DNA from: Polyangium mundeleinium
Lineage (GTDB): Bacteria; Myxococcota_A; Polyangia; Polyangiales; Polyangiaceae
Assembly: GCF_028369105.1 (NCBI RefSeq)
Contig: NZ_JAQNDO010000001.1
Span: 2,163,711 to 2,227,710, forward strand
Length of the DNA: 64,000 nucleotides
Direction: 5' to 3'
In this document: piece by piece, positions 11,037 through 60,985 of the stretch
How the letters are laid out: every line of letters starts with the position of its first letter
Numbering within the stretch: the first letter of the stretch is position 1
The notes under the pieces: generated by a model
The model's input: only the letters and a program-made list of their open reading frames with translations
Database searches by the model: none
Told to the model about the DNA's origin: nothing
Translations under genes and position numbers: made by a program

Positions 11037-11618
11037 ATGAAGATCATGCTCAAGCTCGAAAACCTGAAGACCGGCGAGACGTCTTTCCAGGAGTTTCCGG
11101 ACGAGGAGGCGACGGCGGCGTGGCTCCGCGAGCGCCCGCGCTTCACCGACGTGCTCGGCGTGGTCTTCGAGGGCCTCTCGCGCGAGCAGAACGACCGCCT
11201 GAAGGGCGCGATGCGGCCGCTCGACCCCGAGGAGCAAGCGGCCGAGAAGGCCCTCGCCGAGGCGCGCGAGAAGGCCGCCGAGGCGCAGGCGCTCGCGCGC
11301 GAGAAGGAGAACGAGGCGGCGCGCGCGGCGCATCGCGAGGCGCAGAAGTCGCTCGACCCGAACCGCCCGATGGAGGTCCGTTTCCGGTACGACACGGGCC
11401 TGCAGCTCGCCGATCAGGACGATCCGCGCGGCATCTCCGACGAGGTGCGGGCGGCGTGCACGGCGTGGATCGAGGAGCGCAACGAGTGGGTCGCCTCGCG
11501 GGGTCAAATCGTGGGCGAGGCCAAGATCACGGTCCTCCCCGGCGCGCTCCCGAAGCCCGGCGCCGATCGCGTGCAGCATGGCTCGTTCGTCCCGGTGACC
11601 GGCCCGAAAAAAGCCTGA
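11037..11618 (+). CDS. Hypothetical protein with central coiled coil
   Basis: This 193-residue protein has three parts: an N-terminal domain (to about 65) containing FQEFPDEEATAAWLRERPRF, a charged Glu/Ala/Arg helix (about 65-105) that should form a coiled coil, and a C-terminal part (about 108-193). There is no signal peptide or membrane segment, so it is probably cytosolic. Three in-frame ATGs lie close together (11025, 11028, 11037); the last precedes the most protein-like N-terminus (MKIMLKLENL). It has no recognised family. It lies between a surface lipoprotein and an FHA protein and is not obviously in an operon. Confidence 0.65.
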   Translation: MKIMLKLENLKTGETSFQEFPDEEATAAWLRERPRFTDVLGVVFEGLSREQNDRLKGAMRPLDPEEQAAEKALAEAREKAAEAQALAREKENEAARAAHREAQKSLDPNRPMEVRFRYDTGLQLADQDDPRGISDEVRAACTAWIEERNEWVASRGQIVGEAKITVLPGALPKPGADRVQHGSFVPVTGPKKA

Positions 11619-11656
11619 CGCGGGTCGGTCTGTCCGAATCTCCCATTCTCTGACCG

Positions 11657-12016
11657 TCAGCCGTCCTCGTGGCCTCGCCCGAAGGCCGCGAGGCTCCGCG
11701 CGTCGGCCTCTTCGGCGCGCACGAGCTCGAGGACGATCCGACCGATCCGGAGCCGCGCGCCCGGCGAGAGCTCCTGCGACGCGCGCACGAGCTCGTCGTT
11801 CACGAACGTGCCCGAGGTGCTCGCGACGTCCTCGATCGTGACGCGCCCTTCCGCCACGGTGATCCGCGCGTGCCGCCGCGAGACGGTGTCCGACACGAGG
11901 CGGATATCGGCGCCCTCCGTGCGCCCGAGGACCTGGGCGCCTTCGCGGAGCGGGAGGACGCGGCCAAGGTCCCGCGGCAGCTCTTCGAGGACGACGAGCG
12001 CGAACGACGTGGCCAT
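11657..12016 (-). CDS. FHA-domain protein
   Basis: This 119-residue protein is nearly all FHA domain: LGRTEGADIRL, then SRRHARI (the phosphothreonine-binding Ser/Arg/His block) and STSGTFVNDE. FHA domains bind phosphothreonine peptides, so it probably reads out a Ser/Thr kinase. ATG 12016 is preferred because the sequence upstream of it (from 12079) is Arg-rich and runs through the operator-like sites. It is divergent from the TetR gene at 12120 across a region holding two matching inverted sites. No partner kinase is adjacent; one kinase-receiver fusion lies at 45.8-47.2 kb. Confidence 0.88.
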   Translation of the reverse strand: MATSFALVVLEELPRDLGRVLPLREGAQVLGRTEGADIRLVSDTVSRRHARITVAEGRVTIEDVASTSGTFVNDELVRASQELSPGARLRIGRIVLELVRAEEADARSLAAFGRGHEDG

Positions 12017-12033
12017 GCGCTCAGGTTTACCAC

Positions 12034-12094
12034 GACCGTAAGTGACCATCGGTCCCGTACACGCTTGACGGCGGATCAACGGTCGCTTACGACC
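12034..12094. promoter_or_regulatory. Paired TetR-type operator candidates and promoter
   Basis: Two copies of the same partial palindrome lie between the divergent FHA and TetR genes. The plus-strand copy GGTCGCTTACGACC is at 12081-12094. The other, GGTCACTTACGGTC, is read on the minus strand at 12034-12047. A TTGACG hexamer at 12065-12070 with a weak TACGAC 17 bp later would give a promoter for the TetR gene overlapped by the downstream site. This layout is usual for TetR autoregulation. Binding is inferred from position and symmetry only. Confidence 0.6.
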
Positions 12095-12119
12095 GCGGAT
12101 CCGTTACGGGGTTGTCGAC

Positions 12120-12800
12120 ATGCGCAGCACGAGCAAGCCCCAGGCGGGCGAAGGATGGCAGAGGGCGCACAGCGCCGAGCAAAAGGAGCAGCGGCGGGAG
12201 GCGATCCTCGGGGCCGCGGCGGAGCTCTTCGTGGAGCGAGCGATGGCCGACATCTCGATCGGCGAGGTCGCCGAGCGCGCCGGGCTCGCGAAGGGCAGCG
12301 TCTATCGATATTTTTCCACGAAAGAGGAAGTCTTCCTGGCGCTCTTCATCCAGGCGCTCGGCGCTTGGTTCGACGAGATCATGCCCTTGCTCCGGGGCCT
12401 CGCTCCCGATACCTCGCCGTATGACGTGGCCGCGCTCGTCGTGCGCACGCTCGCGCCGCGGGAGCCTATGCTGCGGCTCCTGGCGAGCAACTCTTGCGAC
12501 ATCGAGCAAAACCTCTCCCTCGAGGCGGCGCGCGCCTCCAAGCGGTGGGAGCTCGAGCATATCGTCCGCGCGGGGGAGGCATTCGAGGCGGCGCTGCCGG
12601 CCTTGCCCGAGGGCGGCGGGGTGCGGGCGATCCTGCGGCTCGGCGCGCTCGTCTCGGGCCTCTGGCCGATGGGGCACCCGGTCGGGCCCATGAAAAAGGT
12701 GCTCGCGGCGCCGAAGATGGCCCCGCTGCGCGTCGATTTTTACGGCGAGCTCGAATCCTCGTTCGGAGCGCTCCTCGCAGGCATGTGCCGCGCGTCGTGA
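12120..12800 (+). CDS. TetR-family transcriptional regulator
   Basis: This 226-residue protein has an N-terminal TetR helix-turn-helix at about 26-75: REAILGAAAELFVERAMADI, then GEVAERAGLAKGSVYRYF and STKEEVF. The C-terminal ligand-binding part is all helical with a GLWPMGHP loop; the ligand is unknown. It is transcribed away from the FHA gene, and two copies of GGTCRCTTACGRYC lie in between, so autoregulation and control of the FHA gene are likely. A pair of stem-loops follows the stop codon. Confidence 0.93.
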   Translation: MRSTSKPQAGEGWQRAHSAEQKEQRREAILGAAAELFVERAMADISIGEVAERAGLAKGSVYRYFSTKEEVFLALFIQALGAWFDEIMPLLRGLAPDTSPYDVAALVVRTLAPREPMLRLLASNSCDIEQNLSLEAARASKRWELEHIVRAGEAFEAALPALPEGGGVRAILRLGALVSGLWPMGHPVGPMKKVLAAPKMAPLRVDFYGELESSFGALLAGMCRAS

Positions 12801-12879
12801 GCCTCGCACGGTGGGGACACACGGGCAAACCCCGGGTGATGACGACCGCAGCGGCGCAGGCCTGAAGCAGGGTTCGCGG

Positions 12880-12936
12880 CCGTCCTTCCTGGAGGACGGG
12901 ATTCGTCAGGCGATGCCGGATTCGACAATCCGGTTT
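12880..12936 (+). terminator. Two consecutive stem-loops after the tetR-type gene
   Basis: The first hairpin pairs CCGTCCT (12880-12886) with AGGACGG (12893-12899) around a six-base loop. The second pairs CCGGATT (12916-12922) with AATCCGG (12927-12933) around CGAC and is followed by TTT. They lie between the TetR gene and the kinase at about 12980. Termination is the simplest reading, but the T run is short, so a structured 5' leader of the kinase gene is possible. Confidence 0.45.
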
Positions 12937-12979
12937 CCGCCCGCTCGATGGGAAATCCGTCTTCTGGCAACATCTGTCG

Positions 12980-48655: not shown

Positions 48656-48685
48656 TTGGGGGGTGCTGGCCGACTTGCTTAGGGT
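48656..48685 (+). promoter_or_regulatory. Conserved promoter cassette of propeller lipoprotein copy 1
   Basis: TTGGGG (48656-48661) and TAGGGT (48680-48685) are 18 bp apart and 27 nt before the start codon. The following TGTCTCTCGGGGAAGCCGGAG, with the ribosome site GGAG, is the same in all three copies. Promoter function is inferred from conservation. Confidence 0.55.
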
Positions 48686-48712
48686 GTCTCTCGGGGAAGC
48701 CGGAGTACACGT

Positions 48713-51700
48713 ATGCAACTTTTAACGATGGGTCGCTTTTTGGGTTGGTTCGCCACGACGGTGTTGCTGTTGCCGCTCGCGGCGTGCAGCGATGAGACGG
48801 AGCCGGGGACGAGCGGGGGCGTCGCGTCGTCGAGCAGCGGGAGCAGTGGGGGGAACGGGAGCGGGGGCGCAAGCGCGAGCGGGTCCGGCGGCGGTGGCGG
48901 GAGCGGCGGAGATGCCGGAAGCGGAAGCGGCGGCGCGGGCGGGAGCGGCGGCGGCGGCGCGGGCGGAAGCGGCGGCGCGGGCGGAAGCGGCGGCGCGGGC
49001 GGAAGCGGCGGCGGCGGCGCGGGCGGAAGCGGCGGCGGCGGCGCGGGCGGAAGCGGCGGCGGCGGCGCGGGCGGAATGGCCGGCGCGGGTGGTGCCGGCG
49101 GAATGGCAGGTGCGGGCGGCGCGGGTGGTTCCGGCGGAATGGCGGGCGCGGGTGGCTCGGGCGGAGGCTCGATCCAGGAGCCCGTGGGGACGAGCCTGCT
49201 CGTGCAGGTCCTCGATACCCAAAACCAGCCAGTGCCCTCCGCGGTCGTCACCGCCCAAGACGGCACCCCGCGCCCGACCGACGGCGCGGGCTACATCCTC
49301 TTCGACAACCTCACGCCCGGTCGATTCTCCGCCCGCGTCGAGCGCTTCGGCTATGCGCCCGCGAGCGTCGTCGTCGCATTGCCCCCGGGCGCGCATGGCG
49401 GGGCGGAGGTGCACCTGTTTCCCCTTCCCCCGCCAATTCCCTTCGACGCGACCGCTGGCGCCGCGCTCGATCAAGGACCGGTGCACGTGACCATTCCCTC
49501 GGGGGCGATCGTCGATGACCTCGGCGAGCCGGTGACGGGGACGGTCGAGGCCACCATCGTGCCGCTGGATCCGAGCCAGGGACTCGCGAATGCCCCCGGG
49601 CCGCTCGAAGGGATCTCCGCCGGCAATGGCGCGACAGTCGGTCTCGAAAGCCTGTTCATGGCGGAGGTCACGCTTTGGCAGGGCAGCCAGAAAGTGCATC
49701 TCGCACCGGGGCAGCGGGCGACGCTGGAGCTGGTGCTGCCGGATGCGGTGGCGGCGAACGTGCAGGAGTGGGAATGGATCCCGGCGTGGTGGTTCGATCT
49801 CGACGCGGGGATCTGGCGCGAGGAGGGCGAGGGGGTGATCCAGGCCTCGGTCGCCGAGCCCGGGAAGATGGCGTGGGTGGCGGAGGTGAGGCATTTCTCC
49901 TGGTGGAATTGCGACAGGCCGTGGCAGGAAAAACATTGCTTCCTCGTGCCGGTGGTCTCGGTCGATGGGTCCGACGTGGCCTCCGGCATCTCCGTGAGCG
50001 CGTCGGGGATGAGCTACGCAGGCTGGTCGAGCCCGGCGCTGACGGACGCGAACGGGCTCGCGTGCGTGGACGTCATGCGGAACGGGACGGTAGAGCTCCA
50101 GATCGGTCCGGTGAGCACGCCGTTCGCGATGGTGACGGTCACCGGATCGGGGCCGGCCTCGGATTGTGGTGGCCATGGTGATGCGTGCACGATCCTGAGC
50201 CCGATCTCGCTGCCGCTCGGCTCCGTTTGCACGCCGGGAACGTGGCAGGATTGCGGGTACAGCGGCCCCGCGGGCACGGAAGGCGTGGGGATCTGCCAGG
50301 GAGGCAAAAAGTACTGCAACGGCAGCGGGACGGGCTGGACCGGCTGCAGCGAGGTACTGCCCCAGGCCGAAAACTGTAGCTCGCCGCTGGACGACGACTG
50401 TGATGGGCTCGTGAACGAGGAAGGGGACGACTGCGCATGCCAGCCGGGGGAGACGAAAACCTGCTATACGGGGCCCGCGGGCACGCTGGGCATTGGTCTA
50501 TGCACGGCGGGGACGCGAGGGTGCGTGAATGGGTTCTTCGGGCCGTGCCTCATGGAGGTGAAGCCGCAGCAGGAGAATTGCGCCACGCCAGAGGACGACA
50601 ATTGCGACGGGACGACCCAGTGCACGCTGTGGAGCATGGTGTTCTGGGGAGGAGGTCCCGATTGGGTCAGTGCGCTCGCGCTCGACAGCGCGGGCAACAT
50701 GCTGATGGCTGGTGCATTCGATGAATTTATAGACTTCGGCGGTGGGCCACTCGTCAACGCGGGGAACTCTGGCTCGGATATCTTCGTGGCCAAGCTGGAC
50801 ACGAGCGGGAACCATCTCTGGAGCAAACGCTTTGGAGACACCAATAACCAATACGCCAATACGGCTGCGATCGACAGTGCGGACAACGTCTTGCTTGCCG
50901 GGGATTTCAAAGGCGCCGTGGACTTCGGCGGCGGTCCCCTCCCAAGCGCGGGGAATTGGGACATCTTCGTCGCGAAGCTGGACACGAACGGGAACCATCT
51001 CTGGAGCAAACGCTTTGGAGATTCCAACGACCAGTTCGTCAGTGCGACGGCGACCGACAGCGCAGGCAACGTCTTGCTTGCCGGGGATTTCAATGGCACC
51101 GTGGACTTCGGCGGCGGACCCCTCACCGGCGCGGGGGGCTGGAACACGTACGTCGCGAAGCTGGACGCTGACGGCAACCACCTCTGGAGCAAGCACTTCG
51201 CGAACATCATCCCCGCCGGAATCGGGATTGACAGCACAGGCAATGTCCTGGTCACCGGAAACCTCTCGGGCACCGTGGACCTCGGCGGTGGGCCTCTCAC
51301 GAGCCTGGGATCCGACGACATCGTGGTGGCCAAGCTGGACGCCGATGGCAATCACGTCTGGAGCAAGCGTTTCGGGGATGTCAGTGAAGAGCGCGTCGGT
51401 GCGATGGCGATCGACAGCGCAGGCGACGTCTTGCTCACCGGGTATTTCGCTGGCGCCGTGGACTTCGGCGGCAACCCTTTGACGAGCGCGGGGAGTTGGG
51501 ACGTCTTCCTGGCGAAGCTCGACGGGAACGGCGACCACGTCTGGAGCAAACGATTCGGAGATCCTGCCAACCAGGAATCCGCTGCGATGGCCGTCGATGA
51601 CGCCGGCAACGTCCTCATCACGGGATACTTCCAGGGCACCGTGAACTTCGGCGGCATCACTCTCACCGCGAGAGACCCAGCGTTCTTCGACGAAGACACC

Positions 51701-51898
51701 TTCATGGTCGAGTTGGATGCGAGCGGGAACCATCTCTGGAGCCGACGCTTTGCGGGCAGACTGCACGAGATCACGCCCGCATTCGACGATGGCGGCAACC
51801 TCCTGCTCACCGGCTCCCTCTTGGAGGCCGTGGACCTCGGCACCGGCCAGCTCTGGACCACCGGCTACGATATTTTCCTCGCCAAGTTCACCCCCTGA
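48713..51898 (+). CDS. Propeller lipoprotein copy 1 (Ser/Gly linker, MopE-like, seven SBBP repeats)
   Basis: This 1,061-residue protein has a lipoprotein signal (TTVLLLPLAACSDE), a Ser/Gly/Ala linker (about 36-152), a carboxypeptidase-regulatory-like domain (about 155-235: LLVQVLDTQNQPVPSAVVTA), and a beta region with IPAWWFDLDAGIW. Two Cys-rich MopE-like segments follow (about 500-640: DDDCDGLVNEE, DDNCDGTTQC), the first kind known from a copper-binding surface protein. Then come seven repeats of the type DSAGNVLLAGDFNGTVDFGG...VAKLDADGNHLWSK (about 645-1058), likely one seven-bladed propeller. GGAG 7 nt upstream supports ATG 48713. Closely related to the products at 54756 and 57902. Surface adhesion or metal binding is inferred. 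Confidence 0.9.
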   Translation: MQLLTMGRFLGWFATTVLLLPLAACSDETEPGTSGGVASSSSGSSGGNGSGGASASGSGGGGGSGGDAGSGSGGAGGSGGGGAGGSGGAGGSGGAGGSGGGGAGGSGGGGAGGSGGGGAGGMAGAGGAGGMAGAGGAGGSGGMAGAGGSGGGSIQEPVGTSLLVQVLDTQNQPVPSAVVTAQDGTPRPTDGAGYILFDNLTPGRFSARVERFGYAPASVVVALPPGAHGGAEVHLFPLPPPIPFDATAGAALDQGPVHVTIPSGAIVDDLGEPVTGTVEATIVPLDPSQGLANAPGPLEGISAGNGATVGLESLFMAEVTLWQGSQKVHLAPGQRATLELVLPDAVAANVQEWEWIPAWWFDLDAGIWREEGEGVIQASVAEPGKMAWVAEVRHFSWWNCDRPWQEKHCFLVPVVSVDGSDVASGISVSASGMSYAGWSSPALTDANGLACVDVMRNGTVELQIGPVSTPFAMVTVTGSGPASDCGGHGDACTILSPISLPLGSVCTPGTWQDCGYSGPAGTEGVGICQGGKKYCNGSGTGWTGCSEVLPQAENCSSPLDDDCDGLVNEEGDDCACQPGETKTCYTGPAGTLGIGLCTAGTRGCVNGFFGPCLMEVKPQQENCATPEDDNCDGTTQCTLWSMVFWGGGPDWVSALALDSAGNMLMAGAFDEFIDFGGGPLVNAGNSGSDIFVAKLDTSGNHLWSKRFGDTNNQYANTAAIDSADNVLLAGDFKGAVDFGGGPLPSAGNWDIFVAKLDTNGNHLWSKRFGDSNDQFVSATATDSAGNVLLAGDFNGTVDFGGGPLTGAGGWNTYVAKLDADGNHLWSKHFANIIPAGIGIDSTGNVLVTGNLSGTVDLGGGPLTSLGSDDIVVAKLDADGNHVWSKRFGDVSEERVGAMAIDSAGDVLLTGYFAGAVDFGGNPLTSAGSWDVFLAKLDGNGDHVWSKRFGDPANQESAAMAVDDAGNVLITGYFQGTVNFGGITLTARDPAFFDEDTFMVELDASGNHLWSRRFAGRLHEITPAFDDGGNLLLTGSLLEAVDLGTGQLWTTGYDIFLAKFTP
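48822..49167 (+). repeat. Ser/Gly linker repeats, copy 1
   Basis: About 346 bp of short direct repeats (GGAAGCGGCGGCGCGGGC of 18 bp and a 24-bp version) code the Ser/Gly/Ala stalk. It is the longest of the three linkers, about 115 residues. Confidence 0.85.
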
Positions 51899-51899
51899 T

Positions 51900-51945
51900 C
51901 CCGCATCCTGAAGGCCCCTCGGGGGGCGAACCCCAGAGGGACCAG
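51900..51945. terminator. Hairpin between copy 1 and the GST gene
   Basis: Downstream of the stop, CCTCGGGG can pair with CCCC-A-GAGG around GGCGAA. There is no T run. It lies in the 69-bp convergent gap and could serve both transcripts. A shorter related hairpin follows copy 3 at about 60987. Confidence 0.35.
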
Positions 51946-51967
51946 GACGCCTGCGAGCGCCGCAGCC

Positions 51968-52585
51968 TCAGGCAATACCTTCCGCCGTGAGCGTCGCGCG
52001 GACGGCCGGGCGTTCGGAGAGCCGCTCCAGGTAGGAACCCAGCGCGCCCGGCAAATCGACCCGCAGCAGGTGCCGATACGTTCGCAGCGCGAAGTACGCG
52101 TACGCGTCGAGGACGGTGAACGCGTCGCCATGGAAGAACGGGCGATCGGCGAGCGCTTCGGCGAGCAGGCTGACGCGGCCCGCGAGGCGCTGCGCGGCCC
52201 AGCGCTTCGACTCCTCGCTCACATTGGGCATCAGGGTGAACGGTGCAAACCCCTTGTGCAGCTCGGTGGCAATGAATTGCAACCCTTCATCGAAGCGAAC
52301 GCGCACGAGATTGCCGCGCGGCGGGGCAAGCTTGGCCTCCGGCCAGGTGTCGGCGATGTAATTCAGCAAGACCGCTGTCTCGGTCAACAAGGCGCCGTCC
52401 GGAAGCAGCAGCGCGGGCACATAACTCTTGGGGTTCAAACGCGCGAAATCGTCGCCGTCCGCGGTCTTCTTGCTCCTCAAGTCGACGCGGACGAGCTCGA
52501 AGGTCGCGCCGGCCTCGCGTAGTGCGATGTGCGGCGCGAGCGAGCAGACCCCGGGCGTGTAGAAAAGCTTCGTGGGCTCGGTCAT
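51968..52585 (-). CDS. Glutathione S-transferase family protein
   Basis: This 205-residue protein has the N-terminal thioredoxin-like domain (KLFYTPGVCSLAPHIALREA, with the Ser/Cys active-site region), the cis-Pro block NPKSYVPALLL and DGALLTETAVLLNYIAD that binds the gamma-glutamyl group, then a helical C-terminal domain with FTVLDAYAYFALR. It resembles beta-class bacterial GSTs. It is divergent from a LysR gene 66 bp away, which is the likely regulator. Confidence 0.92.
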   Translation of the reverse strand: MTEPTKLFYTPGVCSLAPHIALREAGATFELVRVDLRSKKTADGDDFARLNPKSYVPALLLPDGALLTETAVLLNYIADTWPEAKLAPPRGNLVRVRFDEGLQFIATELHKGFAPFTLMPNVSEESKRWAAQRLAGRVSLLAEALADRPFFHGDAFTVLDAYAYFALRTYRHLLRVDLPGALGSYLERLSERPAVRATLTAEGIA

Positions 52586-52651
52586 GCCCGCAGTCTAGGC
52601 AGCCGCCGCAGCTTGAACAATGAAGGCAGGTTGATCAGTCTGTCCAGCGCC

Positions 52652-53596
52652 ATGAACAGCCGCCCCGACTTTGCCGCCATCGAAGCCTTCGCTCGTGTCG
52701 CCGAGACGGGCAGCTTCCGCGCCGCCGCCCTCGCTCTGTCCGCGCCGGTGTCGACCGTCAGCGTGCAGGTCGGTCGTCTCGAGCGTCGCCTCGGCGTCCG
52801 CCTGCTCGAGCGCACGACACGGCGCGTCCGCCTGACCGACGAGGGGCGTGTGTACCTCGAGAAGGTGCGCGCCGGGCTCGACGCGCTCGCCGAGGCGGAG
52901 CGCGGGGTGTCGTCACGCGATAGCGAAGTTCGCGGGCGCCTGCGGGTCGCCGCGCCGGTCGAGTTCGGGCAGGTGGTGTTCGGGCGTGTCCTCGGGCGTT
53001 ACGCGAAGGCGTACCCGGGCGTCGCTGTCGAGGTCGAGCTCGTCTCCGAGCGTGTCGATCCGGTGCGCGACGGCTTTGATGTCGTGCTGGAGGTCGAGCC
53101 GTGCGACAGCGCCTCGCTCGTGGCGCGCAAGCTCGGCGCGCCCTCGCGGCGCCGCCTCGTTGCCAGCGCGGACTACCTCGCGCGTCACGGCGTCCCCGCG
53201 CACCCGCGCGAATTGGCGCAGCATACGTGCCTGGTGATGGGCACCCGGCGCGAGACGGCGACGTGGCGTTTCTCCCGCGGCGGCACGAAGCTTTCGATCG
53301 TGCACCGCCACGCGACCGCGAATAGCTGGGCGCTCTTGCGTGACCTCACCGTCGCCGGCTGCGGGATCTGCTGCCTGCCGGACTACCTGGCCACGCCCGT
53401 GATTTCCGAGGGGAAGGTCGAGGAGGTGCTCGGGGCGTACGTGATGCCCGCGGAGCAAATGTACGCGGTGTATCCCCGCAGCCAGCACGTGCCCGCGCGC
53501 CTGAGCACGTTCGTCGCGGCGCTGCGCGACTTCCTCGAGGTGTGGCCTGGTTGCCTGCCCAAGCCGCCTCCGCGGACGTCCGCGGGGGGCGCGTGA
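52652..53596 (+). CDS. LysR-family transcriptional regulator
   Basis: This 314-residue protein has a helix-turn-helix (about 5-65: FARVAETGSFRAAALALSAP, VSTVSVQVGRLERRLGVRLL) and a substrate-binding domain (about 92-300: GRLRVAAPVEFGQVVFGRVL, ITVAGCGICCLPDY-like block). The ligand is unknown. It is divergent from the GST gene, the usual arrangement for LysR control of the neighbour. ATG 52652 gives the correct N-terminus for the family; the frame extends upstream to 52529 through the GST promoter but is not conserved-looking. Confidence 0.93.
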   Translation: MNSRPDFAAIEAFARVAETGSFRAAALALSAPVSTVSVQVGRLERRLGVRLLERTTRRVRLTDEGRVYLEKVRAGLDALAEAERGVSSRDSEVRGRLRVAAPVEFGQVVFGRVLGRYAKAYPGVAVEVELVSERVDPVRDGFDVVLEVEPCDSASLVARKLGAPSRRRLVASADYLARHGVPAHPRELAQHTCLVMGTRRETATWRFSRGGTKLSIVHRHATANSWALLRDLTVAGCGICCLPDYLATPVISEGKVEEVLGAYVMPAEQMYAVYPRSQHVPARLSTFVAALRDFLEVWPGCLPKPPPRTSAGGA

Positions 53597-53623
53597 ACGC
53601 CCCCCGCTGGACGTAACGAGCCG

Positions 53624-54301
53624 TTATGCGGTGGGGGCCGCCTTCTTCGCAAGCTTTGCCGTGGGGCGGTCAGGGATGACGGCGTGGATCTCCGCCTCGC
53701 TGAATCCCTCGATCTTGTAAAGCCTCTTCAAATTCGAGAGCTCCGCGTGCACGACGCGGGCGAGCGAGGTGCGCACGCGCCCCAGCACCTTGACCTGCGC
53801 CGCGGGCTTGCGGGCGACCTCCACGGCGGCGCGCAAGGCCTCGCTCTCCACCATGATCTCGGCGGCGGTGCTCGTCGCGGTCGCCGGGGAGAGCTTCGGG
53901 TGAATGCCCGATTGCAGGAGCTGCACGAGGATCTCCATGCGCTCGGGCTGCTCGTGGGTGTCGCCCTCGGCGTAGGAGGCGATGCCGTCGGGGAAGATCA
54001 CGGCGAGGGCCGCATCGTAGGCGGGTCGCCCGATCTCGTTCCACACGATGTCGTAGACCTTGCCGATGGTCTTGTCGGCCTTGTCGTTGCGGGCGTCGAT
54101 ATGGGCGCGCAGCGGGGCGAGTGTGGTTTCGGCGGCCTTGCGCTGGGCCTCGATACCCGCGTGCAGGGCGAGCGCCGCGCCGAGGCGCACCTCGGCGAGC
54201 TCGCGCCAGCGGCCTCCACGGGCCTTGGCCTGGGTCAGGGTCGTCTGGGCGTCGGCGATGATGTCGTCGGCCGCCGCGTTCTTGCGAATGATCTCTCCCA
54301 T
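53624..54301 (-). CDS. Helical hypothetical protein
   Basis: This 225-residue, largely helical and Ala/Lys-rich protein has no signal peptide or membrane segment. Visible blocks are AAADDIIADAQTTLTQAKAR, a middle with YDIVWNEIGRPAYDAALAVI and FPDGIASYAEGDT, and a C-terminal part LSNLKRLYKIEGFSEAEIHA. AGAGG about 8 nt upstream suits ATG 54301. Convergent with the LysR gene (27 bp). I do not recognise the family. Confidence 0.72.
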   Translation of the reverse strand: MGEIIRKNAAADDIIADAQTTLTQAKARGGRWRELAEVRLGAALALHAGIEAQRKAAETTLAPLRAHIDARNDKADKTIGKVYDIVWNEIGRPAYDAALAVIFPDGIASYAEGDTHEQPERMEILVQLLQSGIHPKLSPATATSTAAEIMVESEALRAAVEVARKPAAQVKVLGRVRTSLARVVHAELSNLKRLYKIEGFSEAEIHAVIPDRPTAKLAKKAAPTA

Positions 54302-54698
54302 GGGAATACCTCTCGAAAGGGTGGGTGGGCTGGTTACCGCGGCGTCAGACGGAGCAGAGAAGGGACGAATTGGGGCGGCGGGCGGCCAAATCGTGCTTTC
54401 GTGAGCGCGCGCGGGGTCCTGCGGCGCCAAAGGATGGGGGACGGCCTCGCGGAGCGGGACTTGCGGCGCCGCAGGTCGGCGTTCCCGCGGTGGGATCGGC
54501 GATCTGCGGCGTCGTGGATCGGGTGCGGGTGAGCGCGGAGCGAGACCTCGGGCGCCGCAGGCGGGAGGACGCGCCCGGGGCTCGGCGGCTCACGGCGCCC
54601 GAGATCCGTGGGCGCGCGGCCGCGGGCCGGGTCGTGGCGGAGCAGGAGGTGGTTTGCGGGGAGCGGGCGCAATCTTGCGGGGGTGCCGCGTCTGTTTC
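54302..54698. other. Intergenic region without a supported gene
   Basis: This gap of about 400 bp lies between the divergent helical protein gene and propeller copy 2. The frames open across it are Arg/Pro/Ala-rich and look like noise. Several copies of TGCGGCGCC and GGCGCCGCAG occur (about 54419, 54460, 54549), as short direct and inverted repeats. Nothing else is seen. Confidence 0.6.
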
Positions 54699-54728
54699 TT
54701 GGGCCGAGCCGTCCGAATTGCATAGGGT
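54699..54728 (+). promoter_or_regulatory. Conserved promoter cassette of propeller lipoprotein copy 2
   Basis: TTGGGC (54699-54704) and TAGGGT (54723-54728) are 18 bp apart and 27 nt before the ATG, exactly as in the other two copies. The spacer differs at several positions while the hexamers and the downstream leader are kept. Confidence 0.55.
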
Positions 54729-54755
54729 GTCTCTCGGGGAAGCCGGAGTCTACGT

Positions 54756-57700
54756 ATGCAATTTTTAACGATGGGTCGCTTTTTCAGTTGTCTCGCCACG
54801 ACCGTGTTGCTGTTGCCGCTCGCGGCGTGCAGCGAGGAGCCGGAACCGGGGACGAGCGGGAACGTCGCGTCGTCGAGCAGCGGAAGCAGTGGGGGGAACG
54901 AGAGCGGGGGCGCAAGCGCGAGCGGCTCCGGCGGCGATGGTGGAAGCGGCGGAAGCGGCGGAGATGCCGGAAGCGGGAGCGGCGGCGCGGGCGGGAGCGG
55001 GGGCGCAAGCGCGAGCGGCTCCGGCGGCGGGGGCGGAAGCGGTGGAGGTGCCGGCAGCGGCGGGAGCGGCGGCGCGGGTGGTTCCGGCGGAATGGCAGGC
55101 GCGGGCGGCTCGGGCGGAGGCTCGATCCAGGAGCCCGTGGGCACGAGCCTGCTCGTGCAGGTCCTCGATACCCAGAACCAGCCGGTTCCCTCCGCGGTCG
55201 TCACTTCCCAGGGTGGCACGCCGCGCCCGACCGACGGCGCGGGCTATATCCTCTACGACAACCTCACACCCGGTCGATTCTCCGCCCGCGTCGAGCGCTT
55301 CGGGTATGCACCGGCGAGCGTGGTCGTCGAATTGCCCCAGGGTGCGCATGGGGGGGCGGAGGTGCACCTGTTTCCCCTTCCGCCGCGGATTCCCTTCGAC
55401 GCGACGGCCGGCGCCGCGCTCGATCAGGGACCGGCGCACGTGACCATTCCCTCGGGGGCGATCGTCAATGAGTTCGGCGAGCCGGTGACGGGGACGGTCG
55501 AGGCGACCATCGTGCCGCTGGATCCGAGTCAGGGCCTCGCGAATGCCCCCGGCCCGCTGGAAGGGATCTCCGCCGGCAATGGCGCGACGGTTGGCCTCGA
55601 AAGCGTGTTCATGGCGGAGGTGACGCTGTGGCAGGGCAGCCAGAAGGTGAATCTCGCACCGGGGAAGCGGGCGACGCTGGAGCTGGTGCTGCCGGATGCG
55701 GTGGCGGCGAAGGTGCAGGAGGGGGAGGGGATCCCGGCGTGGTGGTTCGATCTGGACGCGGGTATCTGGCGCGAAGAGGGCGCGGGGATGATCCAGAGCT
55801 CGGTGGCTGAGCCTGGGAAGATGGCGTGGGTGGCGGAGGTGGGGCATTTCTCGTGGTGGAATTGCGACAGGCCGTGGACGGACAAACATTGCTTCCTCGT
55901 GCCGGTGGTCTCGACCGATGGGTCCGACACGCCATCCGGCGCGTCGGTGAGCGCGTCGGGGGTGAGCTACGCGGGCGGGTCGTCCGCGGTGCTGACGGAC
56001 GCGAACGGGCTCGCGTGCGTGGACGTCATGCTGAACGGGACGGCGCAGATTCAGGTCGGTCCGACGACCGCGCCGTTCGCGACGGTGACGGTCACCGGGT
56101 CGGGGCCAGCCTCGGATTGCCGGGGCAATGGCGCTGCGTGCACCCTGCTGAGCCCGGTGTTGCTGCCGCTGGGCTCGGTGTGCACGCCGGGAACGTGGCA
56201 GAATTGCGGGTACAGCGGCCCCGCGGGTACGGAAGACGTGGGGATTTGCCAGGGAGCGAAGAATTACTGCAACGGCAGCGGGACGGGCTGGACCGGCTGC
56301 GCCGGCGAGGTGCTGCCCGAGGCCGAGCATTGCAAGTCGCTACAGGACGACGACTGTGATGGGCTCGTGAACGAGGAAGGCGAAAGCTGCGCGTGCCAGC
56401 CAGGGGATTCGAATTCCTGCTATACCGGGCCCGTGGGCACGCTGGGCATCGGAAGTTGCACAGCGGGGACGCGAGCATGCGTCAATGGGTTCTTCGGGCC
56501 GTGCCAGATGGAGGTGAAGCCGCAGCAGGAGAGTTGCGCCACGCCGGAGGACGATGACTGCGACGGGACGACCCAATGCACGTTGTGGAGCAAGGCGTTC
56601 GCGGGAGGAGGTTACGACGAGGTTCGTGGGCTCGCGCTCGACAGCGTGGGCAACGTGCTGCTCACGGGCGGATTCAATGGATCCCTGGACTTCGGCGGCG
56701 GACCCCTCACCAGCGCGGGGGGCATGGACATCTACGTCGCGAAGCTGGACGTGAACGGTGACCATCTCTGGAGCAAACGCTTCGGGAATGTACTGTATCA
56801 AAACGGCACGACAACTGCGACCGATAGCGCGAACAATGTCTTGCTGACCGGGGTTTTTCAAGGCGCCATGGATTTGGGCGGCGGACCCCTCACCAGCGCG
56901 GGAGACGTGGACATCTACCTGGCGAAGCTGGACGCGAACGGGAATCATCTCTGGAGCAAACGCTTTGGAGATTCCGAGGCTCAGTCTGCCATTGCGACAG
57001 CCACCGACAGCGCAGGCAACGTCTTCCTTACCGGAGTGGTCATGGGTCTCGTGGACTTCGGCGGGGGGCCTATCGAGAACACGGATAACTTCGTGGCCAA
57101 GCTGGACGCGGACGGCAACCACCTCTGGAGCACGAGCCTCGGGACTACAGATGCCTTGGGCGCCACCAAGTTCGGGATTGACAACGCAGGCAATGTCCTG
57201 GTCGCTGGAATCCTCGAAGGTGGCGCCCTCGAGGTGATAAAGCTGGACGCCGATGGCAACCACGTCTGGGGCAAGGTTTTTGTGTCTGAATCCCAGCACG
57301 TCATGGGGATAGCGATCGACAGCGCAGGCGACGTCCTGATCACCGGGGAGTTCCACGGCACCGTGGACTTCGGCAGCGGACCCCTCACGAGTGCGGGGGG
57401 CGTGGACATCTACCTGGCGAAGCTGGACGCGAACGGCAATCATGTCTGGAGCAAACGCTTCGGAGATCCCGACGACCAGTATCCCTCTAGGATCGCGGTC
57501 GATGGCGCCGGCAACGTCCTCCTCGTGGGATCCTTCCAGGGCACGGTGAATTTCGGCGGCATGACTTTCACCATGGTGGGCACAGAGAACGCTCTTGTAG
57601 ACACCTTCGTGGCAAAGCTGGATGCGAGCGGGAACCATCTCTGGAGCCGGCGCTTTGTAGGCAAAATGGAAGGAATCGCGCCCGCGGTCGACGGCAACGG

Positions 57701-57809
57701 CAACGCCCTGCTCGCCGGATCCTTCTTGGAACCCGTGGACCTCGGCAACGGCCTCCTCACGAGCACCGACGGCAGCACCGATATCTTCCTCGCCAAGTTC
57801 CCCCCCTGA
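54756..57809 (+). CDS. Propeller lipoprotein copy 2 (Ser/Gly linker, MopE-like, seven SBBP repeats)
   Basis: This 1,017-residue paralog of copy 1 has the same order: lipobox (LLPLAACSEE), linker (about 38-122), carboxypeptidase-regulatory-like domain, beta region with AWWFDLDAGIW, Cys-rich MopE-like segments (DDDCDGLVNEE, DDDCDGTTQC) and seven SBBP-type repeats. Repeat 4 is degenerate (VAGILEGGALEVIKLDADGN), lacking the usual VDFGGG strand. Copy 2 is closest to copy 3 in the N-terminal half. Copy 3 starts 92 bp after its stop. Function as for copy 1. Confidence 0.9.
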   Translation: MQFLTMGRFFSCLATTVLLLPLAACSEEPEPGTSGNVASSSSGSSGGNESGGASASGSGGDGGSGGSGGDAGSGSGGAGGSGGASASGSGGGGGSGGGAGSGGSGGAGGSGGMAGAGGSGGGSIQEPVGTSLLVQVLDTQNQPVPSAVVTSQGGTPRPTDGAGYILYDNLTPGRFSARVERFGYAPASVVVELPQGAHGGAEVHLFPLPPRIPFDATAGAALDQGPAHVTIPSGAIVNEFGEPVTGTVEATIVPLDPSQGLANAPGPLEGISAGNGATVGLESVFMAEVTLWQGSQKVNLAPGKRATLELVLPDAVAAKVQEGEGIPAWWFDLDAGIWREEGAGMIQSSVAEPGKMAWVAEVGHFSWWNCDRPWTDKHCFLVPVVSTDGSDTPSGASVSASGVSYAGGSSAVLTDANGLACVDVMLNGTAQIQVGPTTAPFATVTVTGSGPASDCRGNGAACTLLSPVLLPLGSVCTPGTWQNCGYSGPAGTEDVGICQGAKNYCNGSGTGWTGCAGEVLPEAEHCKSLQDDDCDGLVNEEGESCACQPGDSNSCYTGPVGTLGIGSCTAGTRACVNGFFGPCQMEVKPQQESCATPEDDDCDGTTQCTLWSKAFAGGGYDEVRGLALDSVGNVLLTGGFNGSLDFGGGPLTSAGGMDIYVAKLDVNGDHLWSKRFGNVLYQNGTTTATDSANNVLLTGVFQGAMDLGGGPLTSAGDVDIYLAKLDANGNHLWSKRFGDSEAQSAIATATDSAGNVFLTGVVMGLVDFGGGPIENTDNFVAKLDADGNHLWSTSLGTTDALGATKFGIDNAGNVLVAGILEGGALEVIKLDADGNHVWGKVFVSESQHVMGIAIDSAGDVLITGEFHGTVDFGSGPLTSAGGVDIYLAKLDANGNHVWSKRFGDPDDQYPSRIAVDGAGNVLLVGSFQGTVNFGGMTFTMVGTENALVDTFVAKLDASGNHLWSRRFVGKMEGIAPAVDGNGNALLAGSFLEPVDLGNGLLTSTDGSTDIFLAKFPP
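54867..55121 (+). repeat. Ser/Gly linker repeats, copy 2
   Basis: About 255 bp of GGAAGCGGCGGC-type repeats code a linker of about 85 residues. It contains two copies of a longer unit coding GASASGSGG, a pattern less repeated in copies 1 and 3. Confidence 0.8.
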
Positions 57810-57822
57810 TCCCGCTCCCTGG

Positions 57823-57846
57823 GCCGCGATCCCGCGGCTGTTTTTT
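57823..57846 (+). terminator. Intrinsic terminator after copy 2
   Basis: GCCGCG (57823-57828) pairs with CGCGGC (57833-57838) around ATCC, followed by TG and six T (57841-57846). The T run continues into the -35-like TTGGGC of copy 3's promoter, so terminator and promoter are back to back. Confidence 0.65.
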
Positions 57847-57874
57847 GGGCCGTGGAGTCCGACTTGCATAGGGT
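57845..57874 (+). promoter_or_regulatory. Conserved promoter cassette of propeller lipoprotein copy 3
   Basis: TTGGGC (57845-57850) and TAGGGT (57869-57874) are 18 bp apart and 27 nt before the ATG. It overlaps the last bases of the terminator's T run. Confidence 0.55.
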
Positions 57875-57901
57875 GTCTCTCGGGGAAGCCGGAGTACACC
57901 T

Positions 57902-60900
57902 ATGCAATTGTTAACGATGGGTCGCTTTTGGGGCTGGCTCGCGACGACCGCCTTGCTGTGGCCGCTCGCGGCGTGCAGCGATGAGCCGGAACCGGGGACG
58001 CGCGGGAACGTCGCGTCCTCGAGCAGCGGAAGCAGTGGGGGGAACGGGAGCGGTGGCGGAAGCGCGAGCGGCTCCGGCGGCGGTGGCGGGAGCGGCGGAG
58101 ATGCCGGAAGCGGGAGCGGCGGCGCGGGCGGGAGCGGCGGCTCGGGCGGCGCGGGTGGTTCCGGCGGAATGGCCGGCGCGGGCGGGAGCGGCGGCGCGGG
58201 TGGTTCCGGCGGAATGGCCGGCGCGGGCGGCTCGGGCGGAGGCTCGATCCAGGAGCCCGTGGGGACGAGCCTGCTCGTGCAGGTCCTCGATACCCAAAAC
58301 CAGCCAGTTCCCTCCGCGGTCGTCACTTCCCAGGGGGGCACACCACGCCCGACCGACGGCGCGGGCTACATCCTCTTTGAGAACCTCACGCCTGGCCGAT
58401 TCTCCGCACGCGTCGAGCGCTTCGGGTACGCACCCGCGAGCGTGGTCGTCGAATTACCCTCGGGTGCGCATGGTGGGGCGGAGGTGCACCTGTTTCCGCT
58501 TCCGCCGCGGATTCCCTTCGACGCGACGGCAGGCGCCGCGCTCGACCAGGGACCGGTCCACGTCACCATTCCCTCGGGTGCGATCGTCAATGAGTTCGGC
58601 GAGCCGGTGACGGGGCCGGTGGAGGCCACCATCGTGCCGCTGGATCCGAGCCAGGGTCTCGCGAATGCCCCCGGCCCGCTCGAAGGGATCTCCGCCGGCA
58701 ATGGCGCGACGGTCGGCCTCGAAAGCGTGTTCATGGCGGAGGTGACGCTGTGGCAGGGAAGCCAGAAGGTGAATCTCGCACCGGGGAAGCGGGCGACGCT
58801 GGAGCTGGTGCTGCCGGATGCGGTGGCGGCGCAGGTGTACGAGGGGGAGTGGATCCCGGCGTGGTGGTTCGATCTGGGCGCGGGGATCTGGCGCGAAGAG
58901 GGCGTGGGGATGATCCAGGCCTCGGTCGCCGAGCCCGGGAAGATGGCGTGGGTGGCGGAGGTGGGGCATTTCTCGTGGTGGAATTGCGACAGGCCGTGGA
59001 CGGATAAACATTGCTTCCTCATGCCGGTGGTCTCGGCCGATGGGTCCGACACGCCATCCGGCGCGTCGGTGAACGCGTCGGGGGTGAGCTACGCGGGCTG
59101 GTCGTCCGCGGCGCTGACGGACGCGAACGGGCTCGCCTGTATGGACATCATGCTGAACGGGACGGCACAGATCCTGGTCGGTCCGACGACCGCGCCGTTC
59201 GCGACGGTGACGGTCACCGGGTCGGGGCCGGCCTCGGATTGCGGTGGCAATGGCGCTGCGTGCACCCTCCTGAGCCCGGTGTTGCTGCCGCTGGGCTCGG
59301 TGTGCACGCCGGGAACGTGGCAGGACTGCGGATACAGCGGCCCCGCGGGTACGAAAGGCGTGGGGATCTGCCAGGGAGGGAAGGAATACTGCAACGGCAG
59401 CGGGACCGGCTGGACCGGCTGCGTCGGCGAGGTGCTGCCCCAGGCCGAGGATTGCAGCTCGCCGCTGGACGACGACTGTGATGGACTCGTGAACGAGGAA
59501 GGTGACAACTGCGCGTGCCAGCCGGGGGAGACGAAAACCTGCTATACGGGGCCCAAAGGCACGCTGGGCATCGGGATATGCACGGCGGGGACGCGAGGGT
59601 GCGTGAATGGGTTCTTCGGGCCGTGCCTCATGGAGGTGACGCCGCAGCAGGAGACTTGCGCCACGCCGGAGGATGAGAACTGCGACGGGACGACCCAATG
59701 CACGTTGTGGAGCAAGGGGTTCTGGGCAGGAGGTTCCGAACAGGCCGATGGGTTCGTACTCGACAGCGCGGACAACGTGCTGATTGCTGGCGGATTCAGT
59801 GTAACCATGGACCTCGGCGGCGGACCCCTTACCAGCGCGGGGGACTTGGACGTCTACGTCGCGAAGCTGGACGCGAACGGTGACCATCTCTGGAGCAAAC
59901 GCTTCGGGAATGCACTAGCTCAATTCGTCACCGCGACTGCGACCGACAGCGCGGACAACGTCTTGCTAGCCGGGCATTTCCAAGGCGCCGTGGACTTCGG
60001 CGGCGGACCCGTCACGAGCGCGGGGGATTTGGACATCTACGTAGCGAAGCTGGACACGAGCGGGAGCCATCTCTGGAGCAAACGCTTTGGAGATTCCGAG
60101 CGCCAGTTCCTCGCAGCGATGGCCACCGACAGCGCAGGCAACGTCTTCCTTGCCGGAGAGTTTACGGGCACCGTGGACTTCGGCGGTGGGCCTCTCGGAA
60201 ACGAAGATATGGATTATAATATCTTCGTGGCCAAGCTGGACGCTGACGGCAACCACCTCTGGAGCAAGCACTGGAGTGCAAGCAGCTTGGCCATCGCCAA
60301 GATCGGGACTGACAGCACAGGCAATGTCCTGGTCACCGGAAACCTTTTTGGCACCGCGGACCTCGGCGGTGGGCCTCTCACGAGCATGAGTACGAGCGAC
60401 ATCGTGGTGGCCAAGCTGGACGCCGACGGCAACCACGTATGGAGCAAGCGTTTCGGGGATACTGGTTACCAGTACCCCACTGCGATGGCGACCGACGACG
60501 CTGGCAATGTCCTGGTCACCGGGTATTTCAACGGCACCTTGGACTTCGGCGGCGGACCCGTCACGAGCGCGGGGAAATCGGACATCTACGTGGCGAAGCT
60601 GGACGGGAACGGCAACCATGTCTGGAGCAAACGCTTCGGAGATCCTGACTCCCAGGTTCCCACTGCAACCGCAGTCGATGGCGCCGGCAACGTCCTCATC
60701 ACAGGAATCTTTTTTGGCACTGTGAACTTCGGCGGCATCACTTTCACCGCGGGGAACTCAGCGAACTTCCTGGAAGACTCCTTCGTGGCAAAGCTGGATG
60801 CGAGCGGGAACCATCTCTGGAGCCGACGCTTTGCAGGCTTTTTGCCAGGAATCGCGCCCGCGGTCGACGGCAACGGCAACGTCCTGCTCACCGGAGGCTT

Positions 60901-60985
60901 CTATGATCCCCTGGACCTCGGCAACGGCCTCCTCACGAGTACCTTCGGCAGCTACGATATCTTCCTCGCCAAGTTCTCCCCCTGA
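57902..60985 (+). CDS. Propeller lipoprotein copy 3 (Ser/Gly linker, MopE-like, seven SBBP repeats)
   Basis: This 1,027-residue paralog of copies 1 and 2 has a lipobox (WPLAACSDEP), the shortest linker (about 38-114), carboxypeptidase-regulatory-like domain, AWWFDLGAGIW region, Cys-rich segments (DDDCDGLVNEE, DENCDGTTQC) and seven SBBP repeats, all complete (for example DSTGNVLVTGNLFGTADLGG for repeat 4). The N-terminal half is nearly identical to copy 2, while the propeller diverges from both others mainly between the framework residues. Its own promoter cassette and the preceding terminator suggest separate expression. Confidence 0.9.
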   Translation: MQLLTMGRFWGWLATTALLWPLAACSDEPEPGTRGNVASSSSGSSGGNGSGGGSASGSGGGGGSGGDAGSGSGGAGGSGGSGGAGGSGGMAGAGGSGGAGGSGGMAGAGGSGGGSIQEPVGTSLLVQVLDTQNQPVPSAVVTSQGGTPRPTDGAGYILFENLTPGRFSARVERFGYAPASVVVELPSGAHGGAEVHLFPLPPRIPFDATAGAALDQGPVHVTIPSGAIVNEFGEPVTGPVEATIVPLDPSQGLANAPGPLEGISAGNGATVGLESVFMAEVTLWQGSQKVNLAPGKRATLELVLPDAVAAQVYEGEWIPAWWFDLGAGIWREEGVGMIQASVAEPGKMAWVAEVGHFSWWNCDRPWTDKHCFLMPVVSADGSDTPSGASVNASGVSYAGWSSAALTDANGLACMDIMLNGTAQILVGPTTAPFATVTVTGSGPASDCGGNGAACTLLSPVLLPLGSVCTPGTWQDCGYSGPAGTKGVGICQGGKEYCNGSGTGWTGCVGEVLPQAEDCSSPLDDDCDGLVNEEGDNCACQPGETKTCYTGPKGTLGIGICTAGTRGCVNGFFGPCLMEVTPQQETCATPEDENCDGTTQCTLWSKGFWAGGSEQADGFVLDSADNVLIAGGFSVTMDLGGGPLTSAGDLDVYVAKLDANGDHLWSKRFGNALAQFVTATATDSADNVLLAGHFQGAVDFGGGPVTSAGDLDIYVAKLDTSGSHLWSKRFGDSERQFLAAMATDSAGNVFLAGEFTGTVDFGGGPLGNEDMDYNIFVAKLDADGNHLWSKHWSASSLAIAKIGTDSTGNVLVTGNLFGTADLGGGPLTSMSTSDIVVAKLDADGNHVWSKRFGDTGYQYPTAMATDDAGNVLVTGYFNGTLDFGGGPVTSAGKSDIYVAKLDGNGNHVWSKRFGDPDSQVPTATAVDGAGNVLITGIFFGTVNFGGITFTAGNSANFLEDSFVAKLDASGNHLWSRRFAGFLPGIAPAVDGNGNVLLTGGFYDPLDLGNGLLTSTFGSYDIFLAKFSP
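58012..58242 (+). repeat. Ser/Gly linker repeats, copy 3
   Basis: About 231 bp of repeats code about 77 residues, with two copies of a unit coding AGGSGGMAGAGGSGG. It is the shortest linker. Confidence 0.8.

Follow-up and report, generated by a model that had tools for sequence, protein, structure and literature searches.

Three genes in a 64,000-nucleotide stretch of the genome of Polyangium mundeleinium (13.25 Mb; the whole stretch, G000:C1:2163711-2227710, is what we call the window) belong to a tandem array of putative lipoproteins that end in a seven-bladed propeller. A strong signal of diversifying selection marks the changes in the top face of this propeller (the loops that connect strands D to A and B to C, with the strand ends next to them), in contrast to the opposite face and to the stalk that carries the propeller, both of which are conserved. 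We can best understand the array as a display platform of lipoproteins with a diversifying, and presumably recognizing, face, an account to which we give a probability of about 0.58. That the proteins are exposed at the cell surface, that they bind and what kind of partner they bind are matters that we infer from this pattern.

The genes encode proteins of 1061, 1017 and 1027 residues (copy 1, 48713..51898; copy 2, 54756..57809; copy 3, 57902..60985; all coordinates are those of the window and lie on its + strand, unless otherwise stated). A sequence-only reading of the window, made beforehand, had noted three same-strand genes of 1,017-1,061 codons with a single domain order, and open reading frames and domain searches agree on this: a lipoprotein signal is followed by a Gly/Ser-rich linker (126, 96 and 88 residues in copies 1, 2 and 3), a stalk, a Cys-rich spacer and the propeller. 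We take the motif LAAC at residues 22-25 of copy 1, assigned by eye in the signal peptide, to be the lipobox, and the proteins are presumably lipoproteins. The same reading had spoken of a family of three, which holds for the window, but the array comprises four genes, as a search of the genome with the family profile places a fourth copy at G000:C1:2231258-2234305, 3.5 kb beyond the window. Copies 2, 3 and 4 are matched by this profile over their full length (E 0) and copy 1 as two overlapping pieces (E 0 and 4.4e-40), an end-to-end resemblance that exceeds chance. It had also been proposed that the linker and the N-terminal half of copies 2 and 3 are nearly identical; this is right for the stalk with the spacer (91% identity) but not for the linkers, which differ in length. 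Propeller matches as such are common, with 105 matching pieces listed by profile search in the host genome, spacer-only pieces counted in, and 40 open reading frames with a propeller match drawn from 38 of its loci; the five congeners have 34 to 73 matching pieces apiece.

The propeller spans 50621..51895 in copy 1, 56577..57806 in copy 2 and 59699..60982 in copy 3, and scores 53.9, 62.9 and 63.0 bits, respectively, against the SBBP repeat family PF06739, over its gathering cut-off of 20.5. Repeated W-strand motifs delineate seven blade units in each copy, with a period mostly of 58-65 residues. The number of exactly seven SBBP repeats initially put forward is therefore correct if counted by motif; Pfam alone passes 2, 2 and 4 stretches in copies 1-3, and copy 2 has a shortened blade 4 of 47 residues. 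The repeats had been expected to fit one closed propeller, and the AlphaFold2 (AF2) model of copy 3, the only copy folded, from an alignment of six sequences, does close with seven blades (predicted local distance difference test score, pLDDT, 90.6; predicted template-modelling score, pTM, 0.89), blade 7 being completed by the N-terminal strand. Its best solved match is CylK, a Friedel-Crafts alkylating enzyme (PDB 7ron, 7roo, 7fh6-8), with a Foldseek E value of 8.6e-23; VIA superposes the two with a Z score of 46.2 over 374 aligned residues at a root-mean-square deviation of 2.0 Å, and the propeller profile matches CylK at E 2.3e-50. The propeller is homologous to the seven-bladed propeller of CylK. 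Propellers of BtuG-type surface lipoproteins appear low in the Foldseek list (E about 1e-5), amid many unrelated propellers.

Codon models were fitted to copies 1-4 and to the orthologue of copy 1 in a same-genus genome (G283), taken as that of Polyangium sp. y55x31. Faces were assigned from strand order rather than from coordinates, the top comprising the D-A and B-C loops with the adjoining strand halves and the bottom the A-B and C-D loops with theirs, following the description of the top face in the CylK paper (PMC8916777). The maximum-likelihood ratio of nonsynonymous to synonymous divergence (dN/dS, omega) is 0.105 in the first two stalk domains (58241..58966 in copy 3), 0.29 in a third stalk region to which no family match is assigned (58967..59296 in copy 3), 0.20 in the spacer (59297..59698 in copy 3) and 0.58 in the propeller, which agrees with the earlier proposal of a constant stalk and a variable head. 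Within the propeller it is 0.84 for the top half and 0.25 for the bottom half, and it reaches 2.26 in the D-A loops with the top of strand A (twice the log-likelihood difference, 2dlnL, 11.9 against omega = 1). Site models point in the same direction: in the propeller, M8 improves on M7 by a 2dlnL of 95.4 and on M8a by 89.6, with an omega of 8.8 in the 10% of sites placed in the selected class, while the corresponding M8-M7 values for the stalk, the third region and the spacer are 0.1, 0.0 and 3.2 (p 0.2). Forty sites have a posterior above 0.5; 39 could be mapped, 38 of them among the 253 sites of the top and one among the 172 of the bottom (Fisher tests take sites as independent). Nearly all candidate selected sites thus lie on one face of the propeller, as had been anticipated. 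Neither of the two outcomes named beforehand as contrary to the proposal was observed: the variation is not evenly distributed between core and surface, and the propeller closes in the model of copy 3.

Because recombination among the copies was detected, the site models were refitted with a separate best tree for each of three propeller segments, which gave a summed 2dlnL of 102 and placed 49 sites on the top and two on the bottom. When alignment columns within three of a gap were removed, M8 still exceeded M7 by 83, with 26 of 186 top sites and 2 of 171 bottom sites selected, and by 51 when, in addition, copy 2 was left out.

With the posterior set above 0.9, 8 of the 61 positions within a blade recur as selected in at least two blades. 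Relative to the Asp at the end of strand A, five of them are -9, -7, -5, +10 and +12; the other three lie 8, 6 and 1 residues before strand C. They often stand at alternate residues. The residues of CylK were set against these by their place within the blade, because the sequence alignment of the two propellers is circularly shifted; His391 was taken from the title of entry 7fh8, and the other seven residues come from the CylK paper (PMC8916777). Counted from the same Asp, Ser318, Glu374, Asp440 and Phe499 stand at -7, Leu438 at -9, Asn334 and His391 at +10, while Tyr473 is one before strand C. These eight pocket residues occupy four in-blade positions, all four of which vary in the array and belong to the eight that are recurrently selected, an overlap expected by chance at about 1e-4 by simple counting, made post hoc. 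Loss of the bromide site lined by two of these residues, Ser318 and Asn334, is reported to have left the activity of CylK unaffected (PMC8916777).

Every copy also stands behind the same 31-base promoter-like box, TTGG-N10-CCGAMTTGCWTAGGGTG (48656..48686, 54699..54729 and 57845..57875 for copies 1, 2 and 3). A pattern search of the whole genome that allows up to three mismatches finds it four times, one ahead of each copy and zero elsewhere; the reversed pattern, used as a backward control, has no match, and a scan of the array region with the sigma-70 consensus gave zero promoter-like sites. In y55x31 the orthologue of copy 1 adjoins a LysR gene, the last 799 bases of which are 97% identical to those of the host's, and further along are sequences that match the upstream regions of copies 2 and 4 at 96% and 87% identity. 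The box is present there (L141:9415-9445, with the pattern relaxed by one base), the match ends before the start codon, and an array gene is absent among the open reading frames that follow. This box without a gene is likely to be the remnant of a lost copy. The stalk and the propeller, each taken whole, give the tree ((copy 1, orthologue), (copy 4, (copy 2, copy 3))) with bootstrap values of 83-100; the array would then be older than the split between the host and y55x31, and the latter would have lost copies. In the same region of y55x31, at L141:7080-8282 and about 1 kb from the gene-less box, an open reading frame looks transposase-like by eye. Among the matches listed, those in the remaining four congeners are all of the spacer type; the class search scored at most five candidates per genome, and its counts are lower bounds. 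In more distant genomes, stalk and propeller are found within one protein in two adjacent genes of one genome (G100) and in one gene of another (G264).

It is tempting to see in these features the following arrangement. The lipid anchor and the Gly/Ser linker would keep the protein at the outer membrane, from which the stalk and the Cys-rich spacer would project the propeller. The top face, the functional side in CylK, would bind a partner that varies or co-evolves, whether the surface of another cell, a glycan, a prey or a phage, and the range of specificities would be broadened by the tandem arrangement of copies, all of them preceded by the box. Alternatively, an exploiter (phage, bacteriocin or predator) might dock at this face, which would then change in order to evade it and not to adjust what the cell itself binds. 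Such escape is expected to leave an identical signature of selection, and the apparent loss of genes in y55x31, where a box was left without its gene, would be in keeping with it; it does not, however, require that four copies coexist, and we consider it a possible explanation, though an unlikely one.

We must also consider, as a rather unlikely account, that the top face ceased to have a function once the genes had duplicated and simply drifts, while the stalk and the residues that form the fold remain conserved, the signal of the site models being inflated by recombination and by multi-nucleotide changes. Several observations lend it weight, and they are to be counted against diversifying selection. 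Fitted pairwise by maximum likelihood, the top half has an omega close to 1 in each of three pairs (1.01, 1.18 and 1.00), a value also expected from drift, and the case for selection therefore rests on the site models. Recombination among the copies is indicated by the pairwise homoplasy index (PHI, p 0.0045 in the propeller; in the stalk, none of 2000 permutations was as low), and the best tree changes between propeller segments, two of the three preferring a tree other than the overall one. Six null simulations, run with neither positive selection nor recombination, gave 2dlnL values of 0 to 5.6 only, but they also omitted multi-nucleotide mutations, and both omitted processes inflate such tests; the codon models themselves, fitted by a purpose-written program, do not allow for multi-nucleotide changes either. 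The class formed by the D-A loops with strand A and the sets of recurrent positions are post hoc, because they were fixed after the variability had been inspected by structural element. Silent changes are denser near the selected sites among the paralogues (38 of 156 pairwise comparisons, against 51 of 385, comparisons that are not independent), whereas in the orthologue pair they are not (1 of 26 against 3 of 66). Finally, some other propellers come near the array in part. Among five control groups from five or six genomes each, with a maximum-likelihood omega of 0.08-0.25 and an M8-M7 difference of 0.6-12.9, three exceed the nominal threshold, while remaining far under the value of the array; control L057 reaches 0.80 for the propeller and 1.14 for the top half, control L062 reaches 1.57 in the D-A loops with strand A, and control L061 reaches 1.43 pairwise, a value that falls to 0.13 in the six-genome fit.

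The low GC content of the third codon position may be read in the same way: at eight in-blade positions (-10, -9, -7, -5, +10, +12 and the last two before strand C, a set chosen from the result itself) it is 0.62, against the 0.88 expected when codons for these amino acids are taken from the bottom face. Over the propeller codons of the array (window:50621-60982), this deficit is to be compared with one of 0.05 on average, and 0.17 at most, in 19 control propellers. Drift does not, on the other hand, account easily for a difference between M8 and M7 that withstands both the masking of gaps and the use of segment trees, for the omega above 2 of the D-A loops with the top of strand A, with the reserve that this class is post hoc, or for the recurrence of the same in-blade positions over several blades, where they coincide with the pocket positions of CylK. 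Nor is it what the controls display. Of 20 groups of propeller orthologues found, one is a pair of array members and was excluded; in the remaining 19 pairs between the host and y55x31 the propeller omega is 0.26-0.80 and that of the top half 0.24-1.14, lower than the 0.89 of the propeller in the copy 1 pair, where the top half has 1.23.

How the variation of the diversifying face arises can be narrowed down to some extent. A quick turnover of the variable codons would explain their low third-position GC, and local exchange or a raised mutation rate at these codons may contribute, because the silent changes of the paralogues are denser beside the selected sites. Exchange among the copies does occur, stalk included. 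Gene conversion alone is not favoured as an explanation of the contrast between stalk and head: the pairwise synonymous divergence, dS, runs from 0.14 to 0.27 in the first stalk domains and is of comparable size in the propeller, from 0.085 to 0.38, whereas the propeller has a far higher dN. Donor tracts from other propellers were sought at 35 other loci of the genome and set aside, the longest exact match having 24-27 bases and the best BLAST tract 37 bases at 92% identity. Concerted evolution of the blades was likewise rejected: the blades group mostly by position, with that of copy 2 blade 5 ambiguous, and identity is 56% within a copy, against 69% for the same position across copies (six of the seven blades). 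A diversity-generating retroelement was also discarded, the nearest match to a reverse transcriptase being more than 700 kb away and the variable codons lacking a constant third base. As a separate observation, the reverse-transcriptase matches at G000:C1:1430768, 1476224 and 6376774 have equal scores and lie in 581-residue frames; they are probably copies of one mobile element. Going further, one might suppose that the array is a propeller-based family of recognition receptors of Polyangium, directed to kin, prey or a partner, in which the binding face of the paralogues was diversified by selection, perhaps through the locally raised rate of exchange or mutation hinted at by the low third-position GC; we offer this more specific proposal as a tentative one.

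The homology to CylK raises the question of catalysis. That the proteins are CylK-like enzymes, whose choice of substrate diverges at an active site on the top face, might be suggested by the strength of the match (E 2.3e-50, Z 46.2) and by the coincidence of selected and pocket positions, all the more as the active site of CylK is placed on the top face of its propeller in the paper that describes it (PMC8916777). According to the same source, CylK requires Arg105, a residue contributed by its N-terminal Ca-binding domain, whereas a profile of the 486 residues that precede the propeller in the array matched no CylK chain at E <= 1, and the in-blade positions corresponding to Tyr473 and Asp440 are variable in the array, so that the catalytic residues are not retained. 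We hold an enzymatic function of this kind to be improbable.

The conserved part of the protein has affinities of its own. The stalk, which occupies 49166..49891 in copy 1 and 55119..55844 in copy 2 in addition to the stretch of copy 3 given above, begins by profile matches with a domain like CarboxypepD_reg, which scores 24.1 to 31.9 bits in the three copies of the window, under the cut-off of 32.3, and continues with a FAM171-like one. A profile made of 11 bacterial stalks matches NOMO2 at E 1.6e-11 in its CarboxypepD_reg-like part and the chain of FAM171A2 at E 2.1e-11 in the next part (profile positions 126-249), and 9 of the 11 stalks match PF10577 at E <= 0.01, the best at 3.2e-9. Judged from these similarities, part of the stalk is a distant homologue of the N-terminal region of FAM171 (PF10577; PDB 9y6n for FAM171A2), even if the stalk of copy 3, with 20.9 bits, stays below the curated cut-off of 31.2. 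An AF2 model of the stalk had a pLDDT of 52.1 and was discarded.

The Cys-rich spacer (50222..50620 in copy 1, 56175..56576 in copy 2) had been likened to MopE and thought to bind copper, which the present analysis does not support. Binding of copper by the spacer in the manner of MopE is very improbable: motifs of the DDDCDG type in copies 1 and 3 do look like PF11617, but the scores are 10.2 bits in copy 1 and 13.0 bits in copy 3, with copy 2 unlisted up to E 1, against a cut-off of 27, the motif is so widespread that it is matched 116 times at E <= 0.001 in the host genome, and the alignment of six proteins contains no conserved histidine in this segment, whereas the Cu(I) ligands of MopE are reported to be two histidines and one kynurenine (PMC3423442). 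Disulphides seem likelier than a copper site, because many cysteines of the spacer are conserved. Elsewhere in the genome, a single open reading frame of 2120 residues (G000:C1:2043373-2047455) carries a long series of MopE-type motifs.

A fifth gene of the host (L054:4516-7287, at about 2.367 Mb of G000:C1) has the stalk and the spacer of the array proteins and no propeller. It has a CBM96 module ahead of the stalk and, in the place of the propeller after the spacer, a laminin-G-like module; the gene suggests that the stalk is a general carrier of binding modules, and it counts in favour of the display account. Near it are two genes (L054:8859-10349 and 11477-12940) whose products we take to resemble VgrG-type and pentapeptide-repeat proteins. 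Upstream of the array in the window, on the - strand, window:45784-47202 encodes what looks by eye like a Ser/Thr-kinase-like protein with a C-terminal receiver-like domain.

The sequence-only reading had described the system as not tied to a known one. This has to be qualified, as CylK has a homologous propeller and as the nearest NCBIfam model is that of the LipL53 family of Leptospira (NF047494), likewise an SBBP propeller on a lipoprotein; it holds in so far as copies 1-3 score 137.6, 126.8 and 144.2 bits against the curated cut-off of 400 of that family. The model, with 466 positions, covers approximately the propeller alone, and it is in the propeller that the best-matching stretches of the array proteins lie. 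Leptospira genomes are also reported to hold several related genes, and LipL53 to act as an adhesin, with laminin, collagen IV and fibronectin as its ligands (PMC13066512, PMC4388678), which speaks for the display account of the array as well. A further likeness is to the fungal HNWD NOD-like receptors (het-d, het-e), which are reported to have sites of diversifying selection on the predicted interaction surface of a propeller (PMC12222747). In the array, too, the selected sites lie on one propeller surface, subject to the caveats of recombination and multi-nucleotide change. The fungal receptors are, however, intracellular and built on WD40 repeats more than 80% identical through concerted evolution, according to the same paper (PMC12222747), whereas near-identical repeats of this kind are not found in the array, where blades of 56% identity within a copy group mostly by position. 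Within the myxobacteria themselves, the polymorphic receptor TraA of the Myxococcales comes to mind, described as a variable cell-surface recognition protein of these social organisms. We take its variable domain to be of another kind than the propeller of the array.

Among the matches listed, the literature on SBBP repeats, myxobacteria, selection on bacterial propellers and FAM171-like stalks contains no report of such propeller lipoproteins, and none that assigns a role to the SBBP propellers of Polyangium. These propellers are numerous in Polyangium genomes, and in the array a selected face that falls at the pocket positions of a solved homologue indicates where the function sits. Part of the N-terminal region of FAM171 has distant bacterial relatives in stalks of this kind. 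As for the array, a display platform with a diversifying face would extend variable propeller recognition from the immune receptors of fungi to the lipoproteins of bacteria.

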